Positions 1,815 to 33,504 of a DNA stretch of 33,504 nt are shown one piece after another. This DNA is from Rhodovulum tesquicola (GTDB lineage Bacteria > Pseudomonadota > Alphaproteobacteria > Rhodobacterales > Rhodobacteraceae): NCBI RefSeq assembly GCF_024128855.1, contig NZ_JAMYDV010000026.1, positions 1-33,504 of the forward strand, in the 5' to 3' direction. Position 1 is the stretch's first letter; each line of letters begins with the position of its first letter. The notes beneath the pieces are model-generated. The model was not told the origin of the DNA and made no database searches. It saw only the letters and a list, made by a program, of their open reading frames with translations. The position numbers and the translations under genes were made by a program.

Positions 1815-2612
1815 ATGCGCCCCTTTCGCCCCCTGCTGGCGGCGGCCCTGTGCCTTGCCGCCTCCGCCACCGCCGGTGCCGGTGACCGCATCGAGGTCGA
1901 CCTGGAACTGGTGCTGATGGCCGATGTCTCGCGCTCGATGAGCCCGCGCGAGTTGGAAATCCAGCGCCGGGGCTATGCGGCCGCGCTGGATTCGGATGCG
2001 GTGCATGCGGCGGTGCGCGGGGGGCTTCTGGGCCGGATCGCGCTGGCCTATGTCGAATGGGCGGGCGGCCATAAGGTGGTGATTGACTGGCGGCTTGTGG
2101 AAACGCGCGCGGACCTGGTCGCCATGGCCGCGGTGCTGGTCGACGGGACAAGCGCGCCCATGCAGCGGACCTCGATCTCCGAGGCGCTGGTCTTCGGCGC
2201 CGCGATGATCGAGGGCAACGCCTATGCCGGGTTGCGGCAGGTGATCGACATTTCGGGCGACGGCCCAAACAACGAGGGCCGCCCGGTGACCGAGGCACGC
2301 GACGCGGTGATCGCCCGGGGCATCGTGATCAACGGGCTGCCGCTGATGACGCGCGACGGGATGGGGGCGGCCTGGCACCTGGACGATCTGGACGCCTATT
2401 ACGAGAACTGCGTGATCGGCGGGCCGGGCGCCTTTGTGCAGCCGGTGCAGGACTGGGCCGACTTCACCGATTCCGTCCGCCGCAAGCTGGTGCGCGAGAT
2501 CGCGGCGCTGCCACCGCCCGAGCCGGAACACCTGACCCGGGTGGCAGGATATGACTGCATGATCGGCGAACGGATGTGGCAGGAGCGCCGCCGGTTCTGG
2601 GGCGATCCCTGA
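1815..2612 (+). CDS. Secreted DUF1194 (von Willebrand factor A-like) protein
   Basis: A 265-residue protein when started at the ATG at 1815, which places a signal peptide (MRPFRPLLAAALCLAASATA) at the N-terminus; the upstream in-frame ATG at 1761 would bury it. Residues 33-41 (VLMADVSRSM) contain the DxSxS metal-ion-dependent adhesion motif (Asp37, Ser39, Ser41), and a later ISGDG turn is also typical of vWA folds. The length and the closing region with a conserved cysteine pair fit DUF1194, a periplasmic or secreted family of unknown function common in Rhodobacterales and Rhizobiales. It converges on the oligopeptidase gene with a gap of only 10 bases between stops. The family assignment is firm; the role is unknown. 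Confidence 0.85.
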   Translation: MRPFRPLLAAALCLAASATAGAGDRIEVDLELVLMADVSRSMSPRELEIQRRGYAAALDSDAVHAAVRGGLLGRIALAYVEWAGGHKVVIDWRLVETRADLVAMAAVLVDGTSAPMQRTSISEALVFGAAMIEGNAYAGLRQVIDISGDGPNNEGRPVTEARDAVIARGIVINGLPLMTRDGMGAAWHLDDLDAYYENCVIGGPGAFVQPVQDWADFTDSVRRKLVREIAALPPPEPEHLTRVAGYDCMIGERMWQERRRFWGDP

Positions 2613-2622
2613 GCGCGCCCCC

Positions 2623-4650
2623 TCAGGCCGCCGCGTCCAGCCCCCGCCCCTTCAGAAGCGCCTCGATCCCCGGCAGGCGGCCACGGAAGGCAACGTAAAG
2701 CGCGTCCGGCTCGGCCGTGCCCCCGGCCGAGAGGATATGCGCCTCCAGCGCGCGGGCGGTTTCGGGGTCGAACGGGTCGCCCGCCTCGTCAAAGGCCGCG
2801 AAGGCGTCGGCATCCATCACCTCGGACCACATGTAGGAGTAGTAGCCCGCGGCATAGCCCCCGCCCGAGAAGACATGGGCGAAATGCGGCGTCGCGTGGC
2901 GCATCCCGATGGCCCGCGGCATGCCGATCGCCTGCAAGACCTCGGCCTCACGCTGGATCGGGTCGGCGGGCGGCGGGCCTTCGTGGAAATCCAGATCGAC
3001 CAGCGCCGAGGCGATGAACTCGACCGTCTGGAACCCCATGTCGAACTTCGCCGCCCCCAGCAGGCGGGTCAGCATATCGGCGGGCATCGGCGCGCCGGTC
3101 TCGGCATGGGTGGCAAAGCGTTCCAGCACCTCGGGTACCTCAAGCCAGTGCTCGTAAAGCTGGCTGGGCAGTTCCACGAAATCGCGCGCGACCGATGTGC
3201 CCGACAGGCTTTCATGGGTCACATCGCTCAGCATCTGGTGCAGCGCATGGCCGAACTCGTGGAACAGCGTGCGCGCGTCATCCCAGGACAGAAAAGCAGG
3301 CCGCCCCTCGGCCGGTCTGGAGAAATTGCACACGTTCAGCACATGCGGCCGGATCTCGTCCGCCAGCTTCTGCTGGGCGCGCAGCGCGGTGCACCAGGCG
3401 CCCGAACGCTTGCCGGGCCGGGCGAAGTAATCGCCGATGAAGACCGCCATGTGGCGGCCCTCGCGCGTGACCTCCCAGGCGCGGGCGTCGGGATGATGCA
3501 GCGTCACATCAAGCGGCGTGAACTCCAGCCCAAAAAGCCTGTGCGCACAGTCGAAGGCCGCCTCGATCATCCGGTCCAGTTGCAGGAAGGGTTTCAGCGC
3601 GGCCTCGTCCAGATCATGCTCGGCCATGCGCCGTTTCTCGGCATAGTAGCGCCAGTCCCAGGGCTCCAGCGGCGCGGGGTGGCCGTCCGCGGCCAGCATC
3701 GCCTCCAGAATGGCCGCATCGGCCTCGGCCCGCGCCCGTGCCGGAGCCCAGACCGCCATCAGCAGATCGCGCACCGCCTGCGGGGTCTTGGCCATTTCGG
3801 TTTCCAGCTTGCCGGCGGCGAAACTGTCAAAGCCCAGCACCGCCGCGCGTTCGGCCCGCAGCGCCAGCGTCTCGGCCACGATGGCACGGTTGTCGGTCGC
3901 GCCACCGCGCGCGCCGCGCGCCACCCAGGCCCGCCAGGCCCGTTCGCGCAGGTCGCGGCGGGGCGAGAATTGCAGGAACGGCACGATCAGCGAGCGCGAC
4001 AGCGTCACCACCGGCCCCGCGCCATCGCGCTCGGCCCCGGCGGCGCGGGCGGCCTCGATGACGAAGCCGGGCAGCCCGTCCAGATCGGTTTCGGCCAGCA
4101 GCATCGTCCAGTCGCGTTCGTCGGCCAGCAGGTTTTGCGCAAACGCGGTGCCAAGCTCGGCCAGCCGCGTGTTGATCGCCCGCAACCGCGCGCGCCCTTC
4201 CTCGGCCAGCGCCGCGCCCGCGCGGATGAAGTCGCGGTGCTTGACCTCAAGCAGGCGGGCCTGTTCGGGGGTCAGATCCAGCGCCGCACGCCCCTGCCAA
4301 AGCGCGTCGATCCGCGCGAAAAGGGCGGCGTTCAGAACGACATCGGACGAGAACTCGGCGAGTTTCGGCGAAAACGCGCGTTGCAGCGCCTCGCGCTCGG
4401 GCGTGGAATCGACCGAGGCGAACAGGAAGAATACCGACAGCACGTCGGACAGCGCGCGCCCGGACAGTTCCAGCGCCTCGATGGTGTTGGCGAAATCGGG
4501 CGGTGCGGGATTGGCGGCGATGGCGTCGATCTGGGCGCGGGCCTCGGCCAGCGCGGTCTCGAAGGCGGGGGCGAACTCCGCATCCGTGACGGCGGCGAAA
4601 TCGGGCAGGTCAAAGGGCGCGGCGCGCGGCGCGAGCAGGGAATTGGTCAT
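2623..4650 (-). CDS. M3 family zinc oligopeptidase (peptidyl-dipeptidase Dcp-like)
   Basis: Cytoplasmic metallopeptidase of 675 residues that degrades short peptides. The zinc site is complete: HEFGHALHQ at residues 464-472 gives His464, Glu465 and His468, and the third ligand is the Glu493 in DFVELPSQ. The PHVLNVCNF segment before it is closer to Dcp than to oligopeptidase A, and the length equals Dcp (about 680). The ATG at 4650 is chosen because GGAGG lies at the right distance before it; a longer frame from 4713 adds 21 residues unlike the family. The hybrid kinase gene lies 65 bases upstream on the same strand. Dipeptidyl-carboxypeptidase versus endopeptidase activity cannot be separated by eye. 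Confidence 0.93.
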   Translation of the reverse strand: MTNSLLAPRAAPFDLPDFAAVTDAEFAPAFETALAEARAQIDAIAANPAPPDFANTIEALELSGRALSDVLSVFFLFASVDSTPEREALQRAFSPKLAEFSSDVVLNAALFARIDALWQGRAALDLTPEQARLLEVKHRDFIRAGAALAEEGRARLRAINTRLAELGTAFAQNLLADERDWTMLLAETDLDGLPGFVIEAARAAGAERDGAGPVVTLSRSLIVPFLQFSPRRDLRERAWRAWVARGARGGATDNRAIVAETLALRAERAAVLGFDSFAAGKLETEMAKTPQAVRDLLMAVWAPARARAEADAAILEAMLAADGHPAPLEPWDWRYYAEKRRMAEHDLDEAALKPFLQLDRMIEAAFDCAHRLFGLEFTPLDVTLHHPDARAWEVTREGRHMAVFIGDYFARPGKRSGAWCTALRAQQKLADEIRPHVLNVCNFSRPAEGRPAFLSWDDARTLFHEFGHALHQMLSDVTHESLSGTSVARDFVELPSQLYEHWLEVPEVLERFATHAETGAPMPADMLTRLLGAAKFDMGFQTVEFIASALVDLDFHEGPPPADPIQREAEVLQAIGMPRAIGMRHATPHFAHVFSGGGYAAGYYSYMWSEVMDADAFAAFDEAGDPFDPETARALEAHILSAGGTAEPDALYVAFRGRLPGIEALLKGRGLDAAA

Positions 4651-4715
4651 GGAGCCTCCGTTTGCCGCAAAGCTAGCCGGATCGCGGGGCGGCGCAAGCC
4701 GGATCCCGGCCACGA

Positions 4716-6932
4716 CTATTCCGCAGCACAGCCGGCCGCGTCCGAACCGGGCACCCGCTGGGCCAGAAGCGCGGCCAGATGGCGACGCGAGACCGGCTTC
4801 GAGCCGATCTCGTCCATGCCCGCGCGGCGGAACCCCTCGATCTCCTGCGGCATTGCATGCGCGGTCAATGCGATGATCCGGGCATTGCGCGAGCGCCCGC
4901 CCAGCCGGATCCGGCGGGTTGCCTCGACCCCGTCGAGCCGGGGCATGCTGACATCCATCAGGATCACGTCATAGGCACTCGCAAAGGCCATCTCGACGCC
5001 TTCGATACCGTCCGCGGCCTCGGTCACGTCATGGCCAAGACCTTCCAGCATCGCCCGCGCGACGCGCCGGTTCACGCGATTGTCCTCGACCAGAAGGATA
5101 CGCAGGGGGTCGGCCGCGAGACCCTCGGCGTCGGACGCTGCGGCGGGCTGGGCGCCGGTTGCGGGCCGGGCGGCAAGCGACAGCCGCACGGTAAAGGTGC
5201 TGCCCGTGCCGGGCATGCTGTCCACTTCGATCTCTCCGCCCAGCAGCCGCACCAGCCGCGCGGTGATCGCAAGTCCCAGCCCGGTGCCGTCCGCGCGGCG
5301 GCCATAGGTCGGATCGGCGGTGAAGAACTCGTCAAAGATGCGCCCAAGATCCCCGGGCAAGATCCCGATCCCGGTATCACGCACGGCTATCTCGACCCCA
5401 TCGGTCATGCCGACGCGCGCAACGGCCAACGTTACCGTGCCGCCGCAGGTGAATTTCAGCGCGTTGCCGATCAGGTTGACAAGGATCTGGCGCAGCCGCC
5501 GCGGATCGCCCGTCACATGGCCCAGCCCGTCCCCGGTTTCCAGCACCAGCCGATTGTCGCCCGCCGCGGCGAGCGAGCCATGCATCGCGACCGTTTCGGC
5601 CAGAAGCGCGTCGAGGTCGAAAACCTCGGCATCCGCCGCCGCGCACCCCGAGTCGAGATGGGAGATATCGAGCACGTCGTTGACATGGTGCAGCAACAAC
5701 CGCCCCGAGGAGTCCATGATCGACAGAAGTTCCTGCTGGTCGGCATCAAGCGACGTGTCGCGCATCAGTTCCATCGCACCCAGCATGCCGTTCAGCGGCG
5801 TGCGCATCTCGTGGCTCATCACCGCCAGCAGGTTCGCCTTGGCCTTTTCGCCCGCCAGCGCGTCGTCGCGGGCGCGCATCAGTTCGGCCTCGGCCGCCTT
5901 GCGCGCCGAGATATCGCGCAGGAACGACACCAGGATCTTGCCGCTTTCGCTGTCGGCAATGCTGACCGAGATCTCGGCCGGGAATACCTCGCCAGTCTTG
6001 CGCCGCGCCTCCATCTCGACGCGGCCACCTGCGAAAAGCCGCAACTCGCCGGTTTCACGGAACCGTTCCATCCCGGCCTGAAGGCGGAGGCGGACACTTT
6101 CGGGCACGATCATCTCGTCCATGCACCGGCCGATGACCTCGTCGCGGCGAAAACCGAAGATCGCCTCGGCCGCCGGGTTGAAATCGAGGATGCGCCCCTC
6201 GCCATCGGCCACCACCACCGCGTCGATCGCGCTGGATACGGTGGCGCAAAGCCGCGAGGTCGTCATTTCCAGCGCCCGCGTCCGCCGCCCCATGTCGCGG
6301 TTCAGCCGCGCGAGGATCGCAAGCGAGACCAGCAGCAGAACCACCAGCCCCGTGGTGACCAGTGCAAGCCGCGTGAGCAGTTCCACCACCCTATCGCGCT
6401 GGTGATCGGCATCGACCGCCAGCAACTGCACCCCGCCCAGCGCCATCGCGCGGAAGGGCGCGCGCAAGTCGCCCAGTTCCCCGCGCAGCGCGGGCAGCGC
6501 GGCGGCCAGCGCCTCGTCCGGGCCGTCGATCAGCGGTTCGGCGGCGGCAAGCGCGCGCCAGACCTGCGCTGCTTCGGGCGCGAGGCCCGCACGGGCGATC
6601 ATCTCGGCATAGATCGCGCCATTGGTCGCGATATCGGCGCGGTTGTGCAGGATGTCGAAGCGGCGGCGCACCTCGTCCAGCGGCAGACCGTCCCGTTCGG
6701 CCGCCAGAAGCGCCTTCTCAAGGTCGACAAGCTCGACCATGACCGAGGCAAAAGTCCATTGCACATTGTCCGAATGAGCCATGGCCAGCCGGTCGACCCG
6801 TCGCATCACATCCAGCGACAGGAAGGCGGTGATCCCGATCAGCAGCGACAGCATCGCCGCCAGGATCGCGGCCTGCGCGCGCCACGCCGCGAACCGTCGG
6901 GTCAAAATACGGGAGAAGGCCTTAGCGCGCAT
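4716..6932 (-). CDS. Membrane hybrid sensor histidine kinase with receiver domain
   Basis: A 738-residue hybrid kinase. Transmembrane helices at about 20-42 and 190-210 flank a periplasmic helical sensor; a PAS domain spans about 228-345. The HisKA phospho-acceptor is His374 (VMSHEMRTPLNG), and the ATPase has the N box at 486-494, DTGIG at 519-523 and GTGLGL at 549-554. The C-terminal receiver (about 608-725) has acidic residues Glu616/Asp617, phospho-acceptor Asp660 (ILMDVSMP), Thr690 and Lys712. There is no Hpt domain, so a separate phosphotransfer protein is probably needed. It starts 10 bases after the gene for a secreted molybdopterin-domain-like protein, which may feed its periplasmic sensor. 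The ligand is unknown. Confidence 0.94.
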   Translation of the reverse strand: MRAKAFSRILTRRFAAWRAQAAILAAMLSLLIGITAFLSLDVMRRVDRLAMAHSDNVQWTFASVMVELVDLEKALLAAERDGLPLDEVRRRFDILHNRADIATNGAIYAEMIARAGLAPEAAQVWRALAAAEPLIDGPDEALAAALPALRGELGDLRAPFRAMALGGVQLLAVDADHQRDRVVELLTRLALVTTGLVVLLLVSLAILARLNRDMGRRTRALEMTTSRLCATVSSAIDAVVVADGEGRILDFNPAAEAIFGFRRDEVIGRCMDEMIVPESVRLRLQAGMERFRETGELRLFAGGRVEMEARRKTGEVFPAEISVSIADSESGKILVSFLRDISARKAAEAELMRARDDALAGEKAKANLLAVMSHEMRTPLNGMLGAMELMRDTSLDADQQELLSIMDSSGRLLLHHVNDVLDISHLDSGCAAADAEVFDLDALLAETVAMHGSLAAAGDNRLVLETGDGLGHVTGDPRRLRQILVNLIGNALKFTCGGTVTLAVARVGMTDGVEIAVRDTGIGILPGDLGRIFDEFFTADPTYGRRADGTGLGLAITARLVRLLGGEIEVDSMPGTGSTFTVRLSLAARPATGAQPAAASDAEGLAADPLRILLVEDNRVNRRVARAMLEGLGHDVTEAADGIEGVEMAFASAYDVILMDVSMPRLDGVEATRRIRLGGRSRNARIIALTAHAMPQEIEGFRRAGMDEIGSKPVSRRHLAALLAQRVPGSDAAGCAAE

Positions 6933-27121: not shown

Positions 27122-27199
27122 TTTTCTGGCCGATACCCTCTGGACAGCCCCCTCTCACCCGTCTAAAAGCACGCCACCCGAAGCGTCCGCTTCACCCAT

Positions 27200-27274
27200 G
27201 CCCGGGTAGCTCAGGGGTAGAGCAGTGGATTGAAAATCCTCGTGTCGGTGGTTCGATTCCGCCCCCGGGCACCA
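27200..27274 (+). tRNA. tRNA-Phe(GAA), target of the integrated element
   Basis: Complete cloverleaf: acceptor GCCCGGG (27200-27206) with CCCGGGC (27264-27270), anticodon stem GGATT/AATCC around loop with anticodon GAA, T arm with GTTCGATTC, discriminator A and encoded CCA (27272-27274). The integrase gene begins its 3' end 45 bases away, so the tRNA 3' end is the probable attachment site. Confidence 0.96.
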
Positions 27275-27318
27275 CTTAACAAGCTGAAATGGTTGGTTTT
27301 TGTGGTCATGTCTGGTCC

Positions 27319-28419
27319 TCATTCGGATCGGGTTTGACGCTTTTCGGCGACAGGTTTGACAATCTTCGCCCGCCTAGCGTTCTCTTTTTCCAGCGTCGCC
27401 ATCGTCTCGCGGTTCTTGTCGGCGAGGTTCGCCGACCGCGAATAGTGCCGGGCCATGGACGGCGTTTTCTGCCCCAACAGGTCCGCGATGCGCCGCTCAT
27501 CCAGCCCCGCCTCGCGCAGCGTCGTCGCCACAGTGTGGCGCAGGCCCTTGAGCGTCAGGCCCGGCGCGATCAGCCCTTCCTCCTCCAGCCCGGTCTTGAA
27601 GCGATGCCAGACGGTGGAAAACCCGTTGTAGGTCCAGGCCGCGCCTTGCGAACTGGCCAGCACGGTAGCCGCCTCATGCGCAGGGATGCTGTCGAGGGCT
27701 GCCTGCAAGGTCGGGCTGACGGGAATCGCAACCTCTTCCCCCGTCTTGCCACGCACGCCCCAGATCGTGTCGCCGTCGATCTGATCCTTGCGCAGCTTCA
27801 AGGCATCCGAGGGATCGAGCCCGGTATTCATCATCAGCGCCAGCGCCACCCGCACATGCGGCTTCGCTCGGGACAGGACGATGTCGCGCTCCTCGATGGT
27901 CCATGGCCGGTTCGCATAGGCGCGGTCGCGTGGGCGGCGCTTGGGGATCACGTCCTTGGCGTAGTTCGCGGCGATCAGGCCTTGCGGGATAGCATGGCGG
28001 AACACCTCGCTCAGCAGGGTGCGCACCATGTTGGCCCGCCGCCAGCCAATCTTTTTCGCGGCCTTGTCGTGGATGCCTGCGATCAGCGGCGTGTCGATCA
28101 CATGGACGGGCGTGTCGCGGATCGGGGCGAGGAAATCGGCGCATTTTCGGTAATCGCGGCGCGTGGCCTCGGCCAGATTGGCGAAATGCCCGGTCTCGAA
28201 ATAGCCCTTGATCAGCCCGCCCAGCGTGCCCGCGCGGGGGCCTTTCTCCTTCTGCGCCACGGTGATGGCGCGGATCGTCTCGCAGTGGGCGAGGAATTCG
28301 GCTGATCCCAACGGCGCCTCGGCAAGGTCGATCTTGTGCCCTGTGGCGCGGTGGTAGCAGCGCATCTGGCCGTGACGATCCTTGAATATCTTGAACCCTT
28401 TGACGCGCACATGGGTCAT
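27319..28419 (-). CDS. int: Tyrosine recombinase / site-specific integrase
   Basis: A 366-residue phage-type integrase. An N-terminal SAM-like core-binding domain spans about 65-165. The catalytic domain shows Lys225 (RGKTGEE), Arg294 in LKGLRHTVATTL, the box LLGQKTPSMARHYSR with nucleophile Tyr326, and a basic tail. In the first catalytic box (NTGLDPSDALKL) an Asp stands where the usual Arg would be. The ATG at 28419 overlaps the stop of the upstream small DNA-binding gene by one base. It is adjacent to tRNA-Phe and would integrate the element there. Confidence 0.93.
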   Translation of the reverse strand: MTHVRVKGFKIFKDRHGQMRCYHRATGHKIDLAEAPLGSAEFLAHCETIRAITVAQKEKGPRAGTLGGLIKGYFETGHFANLAEATRRDYRKCADFLAPIRDTPVHVIDTPLIAGIHDKAAKKIGWRRANMVRTLLSEVFRHAIPQGLIAANYAKDVIPKRRPRDRAYANRPWTIEERDIVLSRAKPHVRVALALMMNTGLDPSDALKLRKDQIDGDTIWGVRGKTGEEVAIPVSPTLQAALDSIPAHEAATVLASSQGAAWTYNGFSTVWHRFKTGLEEEGLIAPGLTLKGLRHTVATTLREAGLDERRIADLLGQKTPSMARHYSRSANLADKNRETMATLEKENARRAKIVKPVAEKRQTRSE

Positions 28420-28655
28420 CAGAGCCGGTCCAGGATGTCGTCGCGCGTCATCTCGACATGGTCGGCCTTCATCGTGTCGATCCAGCGGTCGATGTCGCGC
28501 CGGTCCCACAGCAGCGTGCCGCGCGCCAGTTCGACCGGCCGCACCGGGCAGCTCGCCTTGAAATGCTTGATGGCGAGGCCGGTGTAACTGGCGGCTTCGG
28601 ATTGTTTCAGCATGCGCTTGTCGATCACGCTGATGTTGAGATTGGTCGTGCCCAT
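28419..28655 (-). CDS. Small helix-turn-helix protein, probable excisionase (AlpA/Xis-like)
   Basis: A 78-residue winged-helix protein of the MerR/AlpA excisionase type: LKQSEAASYTGLAIKHFKAS, then ARGTLLWDRRDIDRWID, which is the recognition-wing-helix pattern. GGGGGAGAG precedes the ATG. Its stop overlaps the integrase start by one base, a typical xis-int arrangement. It probably bends DNA and controls the direction of recombination. Confidence 0.82.
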   Translation of the reverse strand: MGTTNLNISVIDKRMLKQSEAASYTGLAIKHFKASCPVRPVELARGTLLWDRRDIDRWIDTMKADHVEMTRDDILDRL

Positions 28656-28670
28656 CGGCTCTCCCCCTGA

Positions 28671-28895
28671 TCAGTTCACACTCGACACCGAACCATCCCT
28701 CTCCCTCTCGTCCCCGCGCAGCTTCGTGGCGCGCTTCTGGAACCGTTCCCAGCCGGTCATGGTCAGCAGGCGGGTCTTGGGCGTGATCTCGACGAATTCG
28801 AGCCGTCCGTCGTTCATCAAGGCACGAATCTGCGCCGTGCTGAGCCCCACAAGGGCGCCAAGTTCCTTGGGCGACAGCAGCTTTTCCTGTGACAA
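28671..28895 (-). CDS. Small DNA-binding (excisionase-family HTH) protein
   Basis: About 74 residues if started at the TTG at 28895, which has AAGGAG at proper distance. The frame is open to 28985, with an ATG at 28931, but the extra residues are proline-rich and fall in the operator-like region. The core LLSPKELGALVGLSTAQIRALMNDGRLEFVEI, spanning about residues 5-36, is a MerR/excisionase-type helix-turn-helix, and a basic charged tail follows. It lies 15 bases upstream of the Xis-like gene, so three genes form the leftward integration operon. Confidence 0.7.
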   Translation of the reverse strand: MSQEKLLSPKELGALVGLSTAQIRALMNDGRLEFVEITPKTRLLTMTGWERFQKRATKLRGDERERDGSVSSVN

Positions 28896-28925
28896 ACCTC
28901 TCTCCTTTCCTGCAAATGGACGAAA

Positions 28926-29011
28926 ACGCATTGAATGCGGTGCCGGGCCGTGGTTCGATGGTGGAACGCAGGCGTTAACGCACAAACGTGCGCTTATATG
29001 CGTTCATGCGT
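28926..29011. promoter_or_regulatory. Cluster of ACGCA/TGCGT operator-like repeats in the divergent control region
   Basis: Between the leftward integration operon and the rightward XRE gene lie several inverted sites: CGCATTGAATGCG (28927-28939), GCGTTAACGC (28972-28981), CGCACAAACGTGCG (28979-28992) and two TGCGT copies at 28999 and 29007. The half-site TGCGT/ACGCA recurs at least six times in 86 bases. This is the usual layout of a phage-type repressor control region. Confidence 0.65.
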
Positions 29012-29036
29012 CATGGCAAGCTGCTTGATGGCAAGA

Positions 29037-29459
29037 ATGGTGAATCGTCCGGATACCTACCTCGGCGGCCTCGGCGCGCGCATGGCGATCGCGCGCAACG
29101 AGCTTGGCCTGTCGCAGGCCCGGATGGCCGAGGCGCTTGGCATGTCGCAGCGCGCCTATCAGAGCTACGAGACCGGCAAGCGCTCGATCCCGGTGGAGGC
29201 GCTGGTCGACATGCACCGCCAGTTCGGCGTGGACCTGAACTGGATCTTGCTGGGTGTCGAAGCGGTGCGCCCGGGCCATGATCTGGCCGCGCTGGAGGGT
29301 TTCGAGACGGCGCTGGACCGCCACCTTGGCGCGACCGGCATCCGCCTGAAAAGCGAGAAACGCGGGGCGATCGTCGCGCGCTGGTACCGGTCGTTCCTGG
29401 AAGGGAAGGAAATCCCGATGGACGACGTCCACACCTGGATCGAATTGTTGAGAGAATGA
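29037..29459 (+). CDS. XRE-family helix-turn-helix regulator
   Basis: About 140 residues from the ATG at 29037; three other in-frame ATGs upstream (28998, 29013, 29028) cannot be excluded, and no clear ribosome site decides. The HTH is LGARMAIARNELGLSQARMA with the second helix LGMSQRAYQSYETGKRSIP. The C-terminal half (about 70-140) is helical and may be a dimerisation or oligomerisation domain. Position and divergent orientation suggest a repressor of the integration operon and itself, acting at the TGCGT repeats. The next gene overlaps its stop. Confidence 0.85.
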   Translation: MVNRPDTYLGGLGARMAIARNELGLSQARMAEALGMSQRAYQSYETGKRSIPVEALVDMHRQFGVDLNWILLGVEAVRPGHDLAALEGFETALDRHLGATGIRLKSEKRGAIVARWYRSFLEGKEIPMDDVHTWIELLRE

Positions 29460-29752
29460 TGATGGAAATCGAGAAGAGCGATGCGTGGCAACGCCACCAG
29501 CTGGCGACGTTGGAGCGGATGCAGCGCGACCTCGCGCGCTTGACGCATCCGGTGATCCGGGCGGTGGGGCTGTGCGGGGTGGCCTATCTGGCGAGCTGGG
29601 CGGTTGTGATGGTGTTTGGGGCTGCTGTCGGGGCGATGGTGGTCGTGGCGGCGTTGTCTGCGGGTGCGCTGGTGCTTGGTGCTCCGGCTTTTTCGTTGGC
29701 GATCGGGGTGGAACGGTATCTGCGGGGGCGGTTAGAAGACCACATGAGTTAA
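29456..29752 (+). CDS. Small membrane protein coupled to the XRE regulator
   Basis: A 98-residue protein, not recognised. After a charged 30-residue head (EIEKSDAWQRHQLATLERMQ) come two membrane helices at about 35-57 and 60-83, rich in Gly, Ala and Val, and a short charged tail. It starts with ATGATGATG, the first overlapping the XRE stop. A regulator-membrane protein pair in a mobile element could be a simple exclusion, immunity or toxin-control unit, but nothing shows this directly. Confidence 0.65.
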   Translation: MMMEIEKSDAWQRHQLATLERMQRDLARLTHPVIRAVGLCGVAYLASWAVVMVFGAAVGAMVVVAALSAGALVLGAPAFSLAIGVERYLRGRLEDHMS

Positions 29753-30340: not shown

Positions 30341-30661
30341 GCAACCGTGAAGCCGCCTTGCGGCCCTCCCAATCAGTATCCATGCCTGGAACCAGGGTCA
30401 ACGTGGGCTCGGAGCCGACCTCTGTCGCGTCGCGGCATACCCCGAATCGCGGGCACCCCGCGGCGTCGAGGTCGGCCCTGAGCCGACATTGGCCCGACGT
30501 TCGAGACGCCGCGGCGCGGCCCGCCACTCTGGACATTCGTAGCAATATGCGTACCACTGGTTCTGTATAGGACGTTTTAGGTCACCAAGTCTATTCGCCA
30601 GTATGAGCAATCGCTTGAGTGCGTGGCCTTAAAATGCGCCGTGTGCCGAGGAGTCATAACC
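30341..30661. other. Gene-free leader between the divergent GFA and reverse transcriptase genes
   Basis: About 320 bases. The first two thirds are GC-rich and contain small hairpins and a long imperfect inverted repeat; the last 120 bases are AT-rich like the reverse transcriptase gene, with AGGAG eight bases before its ATG. This is where a promoter and possibly a non-coding RNA of the reverse transcriptase system would lie. Confidence 0.5.
30406..30484. repeat. Long imperfect inverted repeat upstream of the reverse transcriptase
   Basis: Arms at 30406-30422 (GGCTCGGAGCCGACCTC) and 30468-30484 (GAGGTCGGCCCTGAGCC) match at 15 of 17 bases around a 45-base centre. Each arm also contains a smaller palindrome (GGCTCGGAGCC; GTCGGC-CCTGA-GCCGAC), so it may be a dispersed intergenic hairpin repeat rather than a functional RNA. 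Confidence 0.55.
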
Positions 30662-32215
30662 ATGAAACTTGATGCTGACCACTATTTGTGCGCAATCGAG
30701 CATATCATCGCACATGGCGATACAGACATCTTCCCGTACCCGTTCGAGCTCAAGTTCCTTGAAGATCGTAAAGAAGAAGTGGCGAAGGAACTTAGTTCGC
30801 TAGATCTCACCCAATATCACCCTATGAGTTTGGTAGAGGCTCTAATCCCTAAGTCAAAGTTCGGATTCAGAACTGCGCATCAACCCTTCCCTATCGATAC
30901 GGTAATATATTCGGCTCTCGTTTTGCGTATTTTCGACCGCGTCGAAGCAGGTCGCGACGCGAAAGAGAATAACCGAGCATTTTCATATCGAAAAATACCT
31001 GGATTGGACTCAGCACTCTTTTTTGAAGATCGCACATATCGACATTGGCTTAAAGTTATTGAGGCAAATGTGTTTTCGAATGACTACAGCCATGTCATCC
31101 GAACCGATATTTCAGACTACTACTCTCGCGTCTATCGACATCGACTTGAGAATATTCTCGATAGCCTTTCCGGTGAGCCAAAAATCGTTAAGAAGATTGA
31201 GAATTTTATATCTGACTGGCGGAGTCGTCAGTCGTTTGGCTTGCCGGTTGGGAGCAACGCCTCTAGGCTTCTTGCTGAGGCCGCTCTAAATGACACGGAT
31301 ATGGGGCTAATCTCTGAGGGCTACGAACACACCCGCTATGTCGATGACATGCTGATTTTCATCAAGAAGGGTCAGGACCCGTACGCTGCGCTCGGATATC
31401 TTGCAAGACAGCTTGCGGAAAATGAAGGCCTCAGTCTGAATATACAAAAGACGAGGATTCTCGATTGGGACGAATTTATAGCAACTATGGGCACACCCGA
31501 AGCTGGGGATGATGATGCCAAGGAAGAATTTGCGACCGAGAAACTGTTCTGGGCGGCCTACGGTCAAGAAGAAATCGATCAGGAAGCGCTAGACGCACTT
31601 ATGCTGAAAGACCTCAGAAAGGAGCTCGAAGACCTCTTGAACGAACCATATTGGGATATGGGCCAGATCAGAATCGTTTTGCACGCTATGCGCTTAGTAA
31701 AGAATGCAGATGTGGCAAGCTACATTCGAAGCAACCTTTCTGAACTCGTCCCGTTTGCTAAAGATGTGTGTCTGTTAATTGAGGAGTTTCTCGACTCGGG
31801 TATTGCTGGGTTCGAGAATATGGGCTCTGATGTAACAGAGCTTTTGCTGTCCCCTCGCATGCAGCCACTGGATTGTGCGCGAGCATGGTTCTTGGAACTG
31901 GCAGTGCGAGAGCATATTGTTTTCAATGCCGAGCAAATTCGCAAACTAGACGCGTTATCTGGCACACTTGACCTCAGGCAATTGCACCTAATCCGTTGGA
32001 GAGCGAAGGACCTGAACTTCTTCAGATCGCGGAAAACTCGTGTTCATGAAATACAGCCTTGGGCGCAGCCAAGCTTCATTTTCGGAGCGAGTTGTCTACC
32101 AAAGGACGAGTATGCTCATTGGCTACGAAGCATTAAGAGCCGCGTCCAGTTTCCTATGGGAAAAGAATTTGTCGATTGGTGCGGTGCAATCCAAGAAACG
32201 CAACCACTCGGCTAG
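30662..32215 (+). CDS. Reverse transcriptase of the defence-associated (UG/Abi, DRT) type
   Basis: A 517-residue protein. The N-terminal block has HGDTDIFPYPFELKFL and PKSKFGFRTAHQPFPIDTV. RT motifs follow: first catalytic Asp149 in IRTDISDYYSRVY, GLPVGSNASRLLAEA (193-207), YVDD at 226-229 in HTRYVDDMLIF, and LSLNIQKTRIL. Residues about 285-517 are a helical repeat-like C-terminal domain with no maturase or Cas1 features. This architecture fits the UG/Abi reverse transcriptases, many of which block phages. The ATG at 30662 with AGGAG is preferred to the GTG at 30623. The gene is much richer in A+T than the host genes and lies in an integrative element, pointing to recent transfer. The subgroup cannot be fixed without a tree. 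Confidence 0.88.
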   Translation: MKLDADHYLCAIEHIIAHGDTDIFPYPFELKFLEDRKEEVAKELSSLDLTQYHPMSLVEALIPKSKFGFRTAHQPFPIDTVIYSALVLRIFDRVEAGRDAKENNRAFSYRKIPGLDSALFFEDRTYRHWLKVIEANVFSNDYSHVIRTDISDYYSRVYRHRLENILDSLSGEPKIVKKIENFISDWRSRQSFGLPVGSNASRLLAEAALNDTDMGLISEGYEHTRYVDDMLIFIKKGQDPYAALGYLARQLAENEGLSLNIQKTRILDWDEFIATMGTPEAGDDDAKEEFATEKLFWAAYGQEEIDQEALDALMLKDLRKELEDLLNEPYWDMGQIRIVLHAMRLVKNADVASYIRSNLSELVPFAKDVCLLIEEFLDSGIAGFENMGSDVTELLLSPRMQPLDCARAWFLELAVREHIVFNAEQIRKLDALSGTLDLRQLHLIRWRAKDLNFFRSRKTRVHEIQPWAQPSFIFGASCLPKDEYAHWLRSIKSRVQFPMGKEFVDWCGAIQETQPLG

Positions 32216-32417
32216 ACGGCCGGGTTTCTCGAAATATGCTGAACAGTTTCATTTCCTTTATTCGCGCTGAAGCTGACGGCATCTCCACTCAGATACCCAA
32301 TGTCCGATTACAAGTTCGGAACATAGCCATTTTGCACCCGCAGCGAACCACCGCTACCCGCCCAGTGCGAAGGCGACCTGTGCGTCGACGTCCCCGGCCC
32401 ATTACGATCGCCGACCG

Positions 32418-33378
32418 TCAACCTTGGACGCCATACAACTCCCGCAGTTGCTGCGGCAACGGCTCGGAAAGATCGCACTGCACCGTTATCGGCGCCTCGC
32501 CCTCCCAGCCCGCGAATTGCACCGGTCCAGCGTAGCGGAACGGGGCTGCGCGCCCATCGCGCAGTTTCGATTTTCGAAGGAACAGGTGAACCGTCCAGCC
32601 AGGTTCTGCGCCCGAGATGATGCGACCGCGCATGTCGTCGCGGCGTGTGCTGGTCTGGGTTTGCCAGACAAAGCGCGTGGGGCTCGCGAATTGGTCGGCG
32701 TAGTGGTGGCCTGTGGACATGCTGCCCTTGTCCATCGTTACCAGAAGGATCATCGCCCGCACGCCCTTCAGGACCACGATACCGGCGTTCCAAGACCCCG
32801 TGTTGAACACCGCCCCGAAATGCGGCGCGATCTGGTCGCGTTGATATTCGTGCCAGAGGGTCAGACCCTTGGCTGGGGCTATTGGAGCGGAGGCAGCACC
32901 TTCGGCGGCTTCCGCCAGACCGGTGCCCTCGGGCATGTCATAGGTCACATCCCGCGCCTGGAGATATCGCAGGAGCCGCCAGTCCACGAGTTCCGAGGCG
33001 AGCGCGGTGAGTGCCGCGGTCTCGCCCTCGGCAAACGTGGTCTCGAACGTGCCCGGGCCCAACTGGAACCAGTCCGTCTCGGCCAGTATTTTCAGCGGTT
33101 GCTGCATCAGGACCGCGCGCAGCCGGGGCGCGTCGTCCGGATCGACACTCAGATCCGCCTTGATCTGCGGGTTGCGACGAGCCAAACGGGCAACGCGCTC
33201 CACAAGATCGGTCAGAGCGATCCGGCCTGGGAAGGCTCCCGCTTCGATCATCGCGCGCAAGACCAGCATCTTGTAGCTGCGGGTCATGCGGGTTGTCTCG
33301 ATCTCGTCCAGTAGCGCGCGATGTGCCGTCCAGGCAGCGCGCTGCGCGTCGGACAGATCACCCATATCGGCCACGAAC
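32418..33378 (-). pseudogene. C-terminal fragment of a DUF3427-type (DEAD/DEAH helicase) protein cut by IS66
   Basis: The minus-strand frame from 33378 to 32418 (about 320 residues) starts abruptly as FVADMGDLSDAQ, text expected deep inside a helicase, not at a start. The last 140 residues resemble DUF3427 (LWHEYQRDQIAPHFG, later HHYADQFASPTRFVWQTQT and a VHLFLRKSKLRDGR strand), a domain usually found after an SF2 helicase and often in restriction or defence proteins. The helicase motifs themselves are absent. The IS66 end lies directly at the break, so the 5' part of the gene was separated by that insertion. A GTG (33374) or ATG (33365) could still yield a truncated product. Confidence 0.75.
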
Positions 33379-33504
33379 GTAAGCGCAGCCTGACCACCCT
33401 TCGGCTTGCCGCGTGACTATTCAGCGAAGTTCCAGGGCATAAGCTCGGCGATATCGCTCTGCATGTGCTGGTCGAGGATCTTGCGGAGGGTTGCCGCGAT
33501 ATAG
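33379..33504 (-). mobile_element. IS66-family insertion sequence, one end
   Basis: The terminal inverted repeat begins at 33379 with GTAAGCGCAGCCTGACCACC, the GTAAGCG start being typical of IS66-family ends. Between it and the window edge lies the 3' end of the transposase gene. IS66 elements make 8-bp target duplications, so 33371-33378 (CCACGAAC) should be repeated at the other end, outside the window. Confidence 0.75.
33417..33504 (-). CDS. IS66-family transposase (TnpC), last 28 residues
   Basis: The minus strand reads 28 residues to a TAG at 33419-33417: YIAATLRKILDQ, then SDIAELMPWNFAE. The ending with I-x-E-L-x-PW is characteristic of the C-terminal element of IS66 transposases. Only the tail is present; the rest, with tnpA and tnpB if any, is outside the window. 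Confidence 0.75.
   Translation of the reverse strand, partial: YIAATLRKILDQHMQSDIAELMPWNFAE

Follow-up and report, generated by a model that had tools for sequence, protein, structure and literature searches.

The stretch of DNA analysed here, which we call the window, comprises 33,504 nucleotides of Rhodovulum tesquicola (contig NZ_JAMYDV010000026.1, C26 in our numbering) and carries near its right end a gene for a reverse transcriptase (RT) of 517 amino acids (30662..32215, plus strand). The gene is a single intact open reading frame (ORF) whose ATG start codon is preceded by GAGGAG; an in-frame GTG at 30623 offers an alternative start that would add 13 residues. By profile, the protein is a Drt8-type defence-associated reverse transcriptase (DRT): residues 2–508 align with positions 1–490 of the 493 in the PADLOC Drt8 profile (PDLC03783, 475.9 bits, E=5.4e-143), and Pfam RVT_1 is matched above its cut-off (E=1.4e-11). 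We consider it fairly probable that the gene encodes a single-gene UG/Abi phage-defence polymerase, Drt8 by profile and, by fold and gene organisation, Class-1-like and stand-alone in the manner of DRT4 and AbiK. A defence function had already been proposed in an earlier interpretation made without database searches (the sequence-only reading), and our analysis supports it as probable.

The polymerase motifs are where that reading had put them. The codon of the catalytic Asp149, within the motif TDISDYY, lies at 31106..31108 and the YVDD active site (residues 226–229) at 31337..31348, both on the plus strand; D149, D228 and D229 are invariant in all 31 aligned rows. The protein is under purifying selection: measured against its homologue in Roseovarius amoyensis (locus L002), which is 83% identical to the window RT at the protein level, pN/pS amounts to 0.12 and dN/dS to about 0.04, at nearly saturated synonymous sites; in the comparison with locus L026 (74% identity) pN/pS is 0.18. 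These ratios, together with the full-length frame and the retained catalytic residues, make it very improbable that the gene is a decaying passenger with no present function, even if its DUF3427 neighbour is truncated and one relative (L039, genome G014) retains only a 90-residue piece of the RT.

The base composition is indeed unlike that of the neighbours, as had been noticed: the gene has 47.6% GC (GC3 0.498), compared with 67.7% in positions 1–30400 of the window. Because the RT gene was GC-poorer than its surroundings in 16 out of 16 Drt8-type loci compared, AT-richness is a habit of this family and not of the host genome.

The view that no known DRT type could be named has to be given up, since the second-best PADLOC family, RT_UG21, reaches 143.8 bits, the Drt4 models 52–63 bits and Drt6 55 bits, although none of the NCBIfam Drt models reaches its cut-off (no Drt8 model is among the nine matches listed). 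DRT8 presumably corresponds to UG7, to judge from the order of PADLOC accessions. At E<=1e-30, the Drt8 profile has matches in 5 of 398, 7 of 385 and 7 of 369 genomes (the window's own genome is within the first two counts); no match at E<=1e-5 was obtained among phage records. Candidates from G583, G789, G1051, G1251 and G1352 were rejected as Drt8 because they belong to UG20, DRT4/6 or UG19.

In a tree of the RT domain (residues 60–290, 24 rows, no sequence of a diversity-generating retroelement (DGR) included), the window RT joins the Drt8 and DRT4/6 rows with a support of 96/90. Outside this group lie the UG19/UG20 rows and four other RTs, of which two are from group II introns, one is from a retron and one is a DRT2. 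Support is limited at the deepest split (73/73) and for the Drt8 rows as a group (70/57). The tree bears out the assignment to the UG/Abi-type RTs, and the placement that the sequence-only reading had suggested as a check was thus made in part: the protein stands apart from the group II intron and retron RTs, with DGR RTs outside the sample. Searches for group II intron features were also negative, as the NCBIfam model group_II_RT_mat scores 58 bits against a cut-off of 300 and Rfam lists no intron RNA in the window.

An AlphaFold2 model of the protein, built from 10 sequences (mean pLDDT 79.6, pTM 0.81), consists of an RT core, a low-confidence flexible linker at about residues 278–303 (31493..31570, plus strand; pLDDT <50 across most of it) and a region that is all-helical by DSSP from residue 307 to 513 (31580..32200, plus strand). 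According to the model, the C-terminal helical (HEAT-like) domain of Class 1 UG RTs of the AbiK/DRT4 type is present after the RT domain. The proposal of a helical C-terminus instead of maturase parts therefore holds, also in view of the low score of the group II maturase model. In a Foldseek search of the PDB, the best 13 chains were all DRT4/UG15, DRT6, AbiK, AbiA or Abi-P2 (TMq 0.45–0.60), and DRT9, which is of the non-coding RNA (ncRNA) type, ranked later (TMq 0.39–0.42). Group II RTs match via the RT core (TMt 0.50–0.67) and a DGR RT appears at rank 48 (TMt 0.60). These last matches are what speaks for a retroelement or domesticated RT (group II, DGR or repair) that plays no part in defence; considering the RT-domain tree, the profile scores, the helical domain and the sites shared with defence-type genes (see below), we regard such an origin as scarcely credible.

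AbiK and Abi-P2 (PMC9508834) as well as DRT4 (PMC13314766) are described as performing untemplated, protein-primed DNA synthesis, and a flexible loop is reported to join the polymerase and the helical domain of AbiA (PMC11077055). In the window RT, Tyr52 and Tyr300 are candidate priming residues. Tyr52 is conserved in 7/7 rows of the window clade (defined below) and in 13/31 rows overall. Tyr300, which lies in the linker, is found in 18/18 rows of the window and PDDEXK clades taken together, in 18/31 overall, and is nearly invariant over the 16 rows of another alignment; its state in the remaining rows varies with the alignment, so the linker must be considered hard to align.

DRT8 has been characterised by its PD-(D/E)XK domain (PMC12596737). 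The PADLOC profile RTasPDDEXK recognised this nuclease immediately 3′ of the RT in loci L029, L030 and L034, and a custom nuclease profile added L035, L047–L052, L092, L094, L095 and L097. Counted from its first start codon, the nuclease frame begins before the RT gene ends in 13 of the 14 nuclease-bearing loci. The exception is L095, where the nuclease gene is annotated at 5694–6326, 109 nt past the RT; an overlap of -755 nt at this locus was rejected as an artefact of a too-early start.

A tree of full-length RT sequences comprised 36 rows, including five outgroup RTs. Twelve of 45 viral loci (L047–L058) had entered the RT list and the 33 weaker ones were left out; L049, L052, L058 and L097 were dropped as copies or fragments, and the fragment L039 was never included. 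The 11 rows that carry the nuclease fall into a single clade (100/99). The window RT belongs to another, of seven rows (100/100), together with L002, L026, L027, L031, L032 and L040, and both clades share one fork with four further rows (96/97). The tree is weaker at an inner fork (88/77), and the long branches of L033, L044–L046 and L057 are placed with less certainty.

The nuclease was not found beside the RT in any of the seven window-clade loci (within the window, 1.3 kb of DNA follow the gene), nor in the four further rows of the fork or in rows outside it. In trans, a search with the PADLOC nuclease profile PDLC03797 yielded none in the six window-clade genomes covered (G000, G009, G204, G471, G663 and G977; the L040 genome was not among them), and the same profile found the nuclease in 4/4 genomes already known to carry it. 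As it was not found in the four other fork rows or outside the fork, a single gain is the simplest history of the nuclease. This suggests that the stand-alone RT is the older state and that the PD-(D/E)XK gene was gained later by one lineage. The earlier notion of a poorly sampled subgroup fits these data but can be sharpened to a well-supported branch in which the DRT8 nuclease was not found. A partial survey of the literature gave no description of a nuclease-free DRT8 branch; such members may be covered by Mestre et al. (2022) in their survey of UG/Abi RTs.

The system might instead be a DRT8 whose PD-(D/E)XK nuclease is very divergent, or one that depends on some non-homologous nuclease or ATPase from another locus. 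DRT8 being described by this domain (PMC12596737), one could expect a partner, and there are two genes to consider: one for a HerA-type ATPase, immediately upstream of the RT in clade members L027 and L040, and the restriction-like DUF3427 remnant 202 bp downstream of the window RT. However, the DUF3427 gene is truncated and lies on the opposite strand, the three closest loci have no neighbouring protein in common, and PDLC03797 detected nothing in the six clade genomes covered while recognising all its positive controls. Thus, we think a hidden partner unlikely.

Some other loci were noted along the way. A second RT next to the Aminobacter RT (L040) was rejected as a partner, as it is the RT-DUF3800 gene of a type VII-A1 retron, which is another system. 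The 827-residue protein of L042 (G1117:C96, ORF 2437–4920, minus strand) is a Drt8-type RT extended at its C-terminus by ~300 residues, in which, by eye, a transmembrane helix and a coiled coil can be seen; a fusion of RT and nuclease was rejected there, since the C-terminus has no PADLOC match and its DUF3108-like match is sub-threshold. At L043, a Drt8-type RT has an immediate neighbour on each side, an AAA_21/AAA_15 protein upstream and a PD-Lambda-3_A protein downstream. The RT piece at L039 (6883–7155, minus strand) belongs to the window branch, with ~54% identity over residues 1–77, and is probably a decayed copy. In Dinoroseobacter shibae pDSHI01 (L174, 2237–5480), a gene for an RNA-directed DNA polymerase overlaps a gene annotated as a DNA polymerase.

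The size of the functional unit can be judged from genome G009 (locus L026), in which the RT stands alone, flanked by an SMC-family gene and a ParB_N gene. The stretch not found in congeners measures 1715 nt, that is the RT gene with 117 nt upstream and 44 nt downstream (161 nt non-coding), and suggests what the minimal unit may be. Its borders are dispersed repeats; the left one moves by up to 33 nt depending on the relative used (6721–6754), and on the right similarity resumes later in one relative of five (L126). All 13 genomes of the genus, G009 included, matched the hotspot query, and five of the 12 others were read (L122–L126). At the same spot each of the five has one main ORF, namely a DRT2 (402 bits), an AAA/OLD-like protein, an AIPR protein and two unmatched ones; no empty site was seen among the genomes read. 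From these comparisons, the spot accommodates single genes that are relatively AT-rich and in part defensive. The two proteins without a PADLOC or Pfam match (531 and 565 amino acids) are candidate new defence genes. The L002 site is variable too, with stretches of 0.6–1.7 kb in the four relatives read, one of which was scanned with PADLOC and gave no match.

It is worth asking whether the RT has an RNA partner in its vicinity. The Class 1 DRTs investigated to date are reported to synthesise without a nucleic-acid template and those of Class 2 from cis ncRNAs (PMC13174585). The window RT is preceded by an AT-rich leader (30541..30661, plus strand, 49.6% GC) with the ribosome-binding site and no unusually stable fold, and the promoter scan showed no sigma-70-type or promoter-like site on the plus strand of 30341–32420. 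DNA similarity to L026 covers 30661–32215 and stops at the gene limits; to L002 it covers 30649–32214 plus a downstream block of 52–68 nt. The block, common to L002 and not to L026, lies at 32297..32364 (plus strand, 68 nt) and consists of a hairpin, a T-rich step and then GCAGCGAA..CCGCT..CCGCCC. By eye it is perhaps a terminator with an intergenic remnant; it is not among the terminators listed by the scan. It is present once in its own genome, and 12 viral contigs contain its core pattern. Judged by sequence, no conserved cis ncRNA was found: the flanks have this block in common with L002 and nothing with L026. A 144-nt element found upstream of the RT in L002 and downstream in L026 was rejected as a candidate ncRNA, being a dispersed intergenic repeat with many genome matches.

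In folding, the leaders of three homologues are no more stable than shuffled sequences (z +1.28, +1.17 and +0.65, the first being that of the window), and the stretch 3′ of the L002 gene is only slightly more so (z -1.04). What favours a Class 2-like DRT, templated by an RNA encoded beside the gene, is a long, near-perfect GC-rich hairpin at 30395–30495, which ends ~166 nt before the RT start codon; 30395–30530 folds at -79.4 kcal/mol (z -3.7, 0/200 shuffles as good), and 32216–32365, too, is more stable than its shuffles (z -2.8, 1/200). But nothing in the flanks of L002 or L026 matches the hairpin, and it occurs once in the genome (the next-best match is 48 nt long, E 0.012), so we do not assign it to the RT. 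Moreover, the G009 stretch has its 117 and 44 non-coding nt where the DRT2 stretch at the same spot has 426, room for an RNA; the fold is of Class 1 type, and Rfam at gathering scores finds two tRNAs only in the window, though an RNA conserved in structure alone could have gone unnoticed. Templating by a neighbouring ncRNA is therefore quite improbable.

On its left, the gene is preceded by the marks of an integrative element. A tRNA-Phe gene (27200..27274, plus strand; ARAGORN, Rfam), the attachment gene of the element, is followed by a gene for a tyrosine recombinase (integrase) of 396 amino acids (27319..28509, minus strand; Pfam Phage_integrase, E=8.9e-15), and the whole module of tRNA-Phe, integrase and regulator (27174..29737) is 91.7% identical to one in genome G1430 (L167). 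Among 15 same-genus genomes compared, synteny stops at 27274–27276 in all five stretches with a long right side. A 90-nt att-like copy, 92% identical and less than a whole tRNA gene, lies on a separate contig (C12:18759–18848). These observations support a tRNA-Phe integrative element. That the RT is carried by it, as the sequence-only reading had it, stands as far as the tRNA, the integrase and the break of synteny at the tRNA 3′ end are concerned; a place of the RT within a closed element is not established, as the contig stops short of the right end. The "broken defence-like helicase" of that reading proved to be a C-terminal remnant of 318 amino acids of a DUF3427 (type IV restriction-like) helicase (32418..33374, minus strand; PADLOC mREase_IV positions 665–934 of 945, E=2.4e-7). 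The remainder of this helicase is out of view, since the contig ends with the window at 33504. Before this end there is a C-terminus of an IS66-type transposase (33420..33503, minus strand; Pfam DDE_Tnp_IS66_C, E=7.2e-6, 26.5 bits, below the 30-bit gathering cut-off).

The interpretation as a single-gene defence polymerase has its observed base in the intact conserved active site, the predicted Class-1-type fold, the purifying selection and the single-gene unit, to which are added the PD-(D/E)XK partner not found and a homologue in a defence-type location. By analogy with DRT4 and AbiK, the protein may form trimers or hexamers through its helical domain, and one of its own tyrosines, possibly Tyr52 or Tyr300 of the linker, would accept the first nucleotide. 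The YVDD site would then extend single-stranded DNA without a nucleic-acid template, with the helical domain in place of the template strand. During phage infection, the DNA product might build up or be stabilised, and it could arrest the cell or occupy DNA-binding proteins of the phage or the host, so that no nuclease partner would be needed. According to reviews, DRT8 protects against phages by a mechanism not yet worked out (PMC13213688, PMC13314766). The further idea, that this is a nuclease-free DRT8 branch with the DNA product as the effector, stand-alone at first and joined by PD-(D/E)XK in one lineage later, we would put at somewhat less than an even chance. If it is true, the two DRT8 branches are a natural pair, RT alone and RT plus nuclease. 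With so close a branch lacking the nuclease, it becomes testable whether the DNA is a weapon or a signal for the nuclease, as a comparison of the lone RT with the RT–nuclease pair would separate the two.

Several points weigh against the polymerase model. TM-scores of 0.45–0.60 indicate a common architecture and not a common reaction. A profile search of the PDB puts a Cas6-RT-Cas1 chain first (4.7e-14) and Abi-P2 second (5.5e-14). Neither candidate priming tyrosine is family-wide. That the product is the effector is not implied by the fold, because DRT1, of Class 3, likewise synthesises DNA without a template, yet this DNA serves to control a nitrilase (PMC13275509). Finally, the window clade rests on seven loci, two of which, L027 and L040, are closely related. 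The HerA-type ATPase gene adjoins the RT in these two clade members alone (the two copies are 86% identical), and part of the branch may therefore have a partner.

Among known systems, the window RT is nearest in profile to DRT8 as defined in PADLOC by Drt8 plus RTasPDDEXK: it fits the profile over nearly its whole length and shares the fork with the nuclease-bearing RTs. It differs in that no PD-(D/E)XK nuclease was found in cis or in trans, in forming its own clade, and in having 27–29% identity to the seven nuclease-bearing RTs aligned (alignments A2 and A3). The ncRNA-templated Class 2 systems DRT2, DRT9 and DRT10 are UG RTs as well, and a relative of G009 in the same genus has a DRT2 at the hotspot, but no conserved cis RNA was found at the window RT, DRT9 is farther in fold (TMq about 0.4), and the RT domain of DRT2 stands apart in the tree on a long branch. 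With AbiK, Abi-P2 and AbiA, the protein has in common a palm/fingers RT with a helical domain, a flexible linker and a single gene, whereas its priming tyrosine is represented by candidates and it has no HEPN domain, which is present in AbiA. DRT4 (UG15) and DRT6 are likewise single proteins with an RT and a helical domain; they belong to other profile families and show 13–17% identity to the window RT in structural alignments, yet they are among its top fold matches in the PDB.
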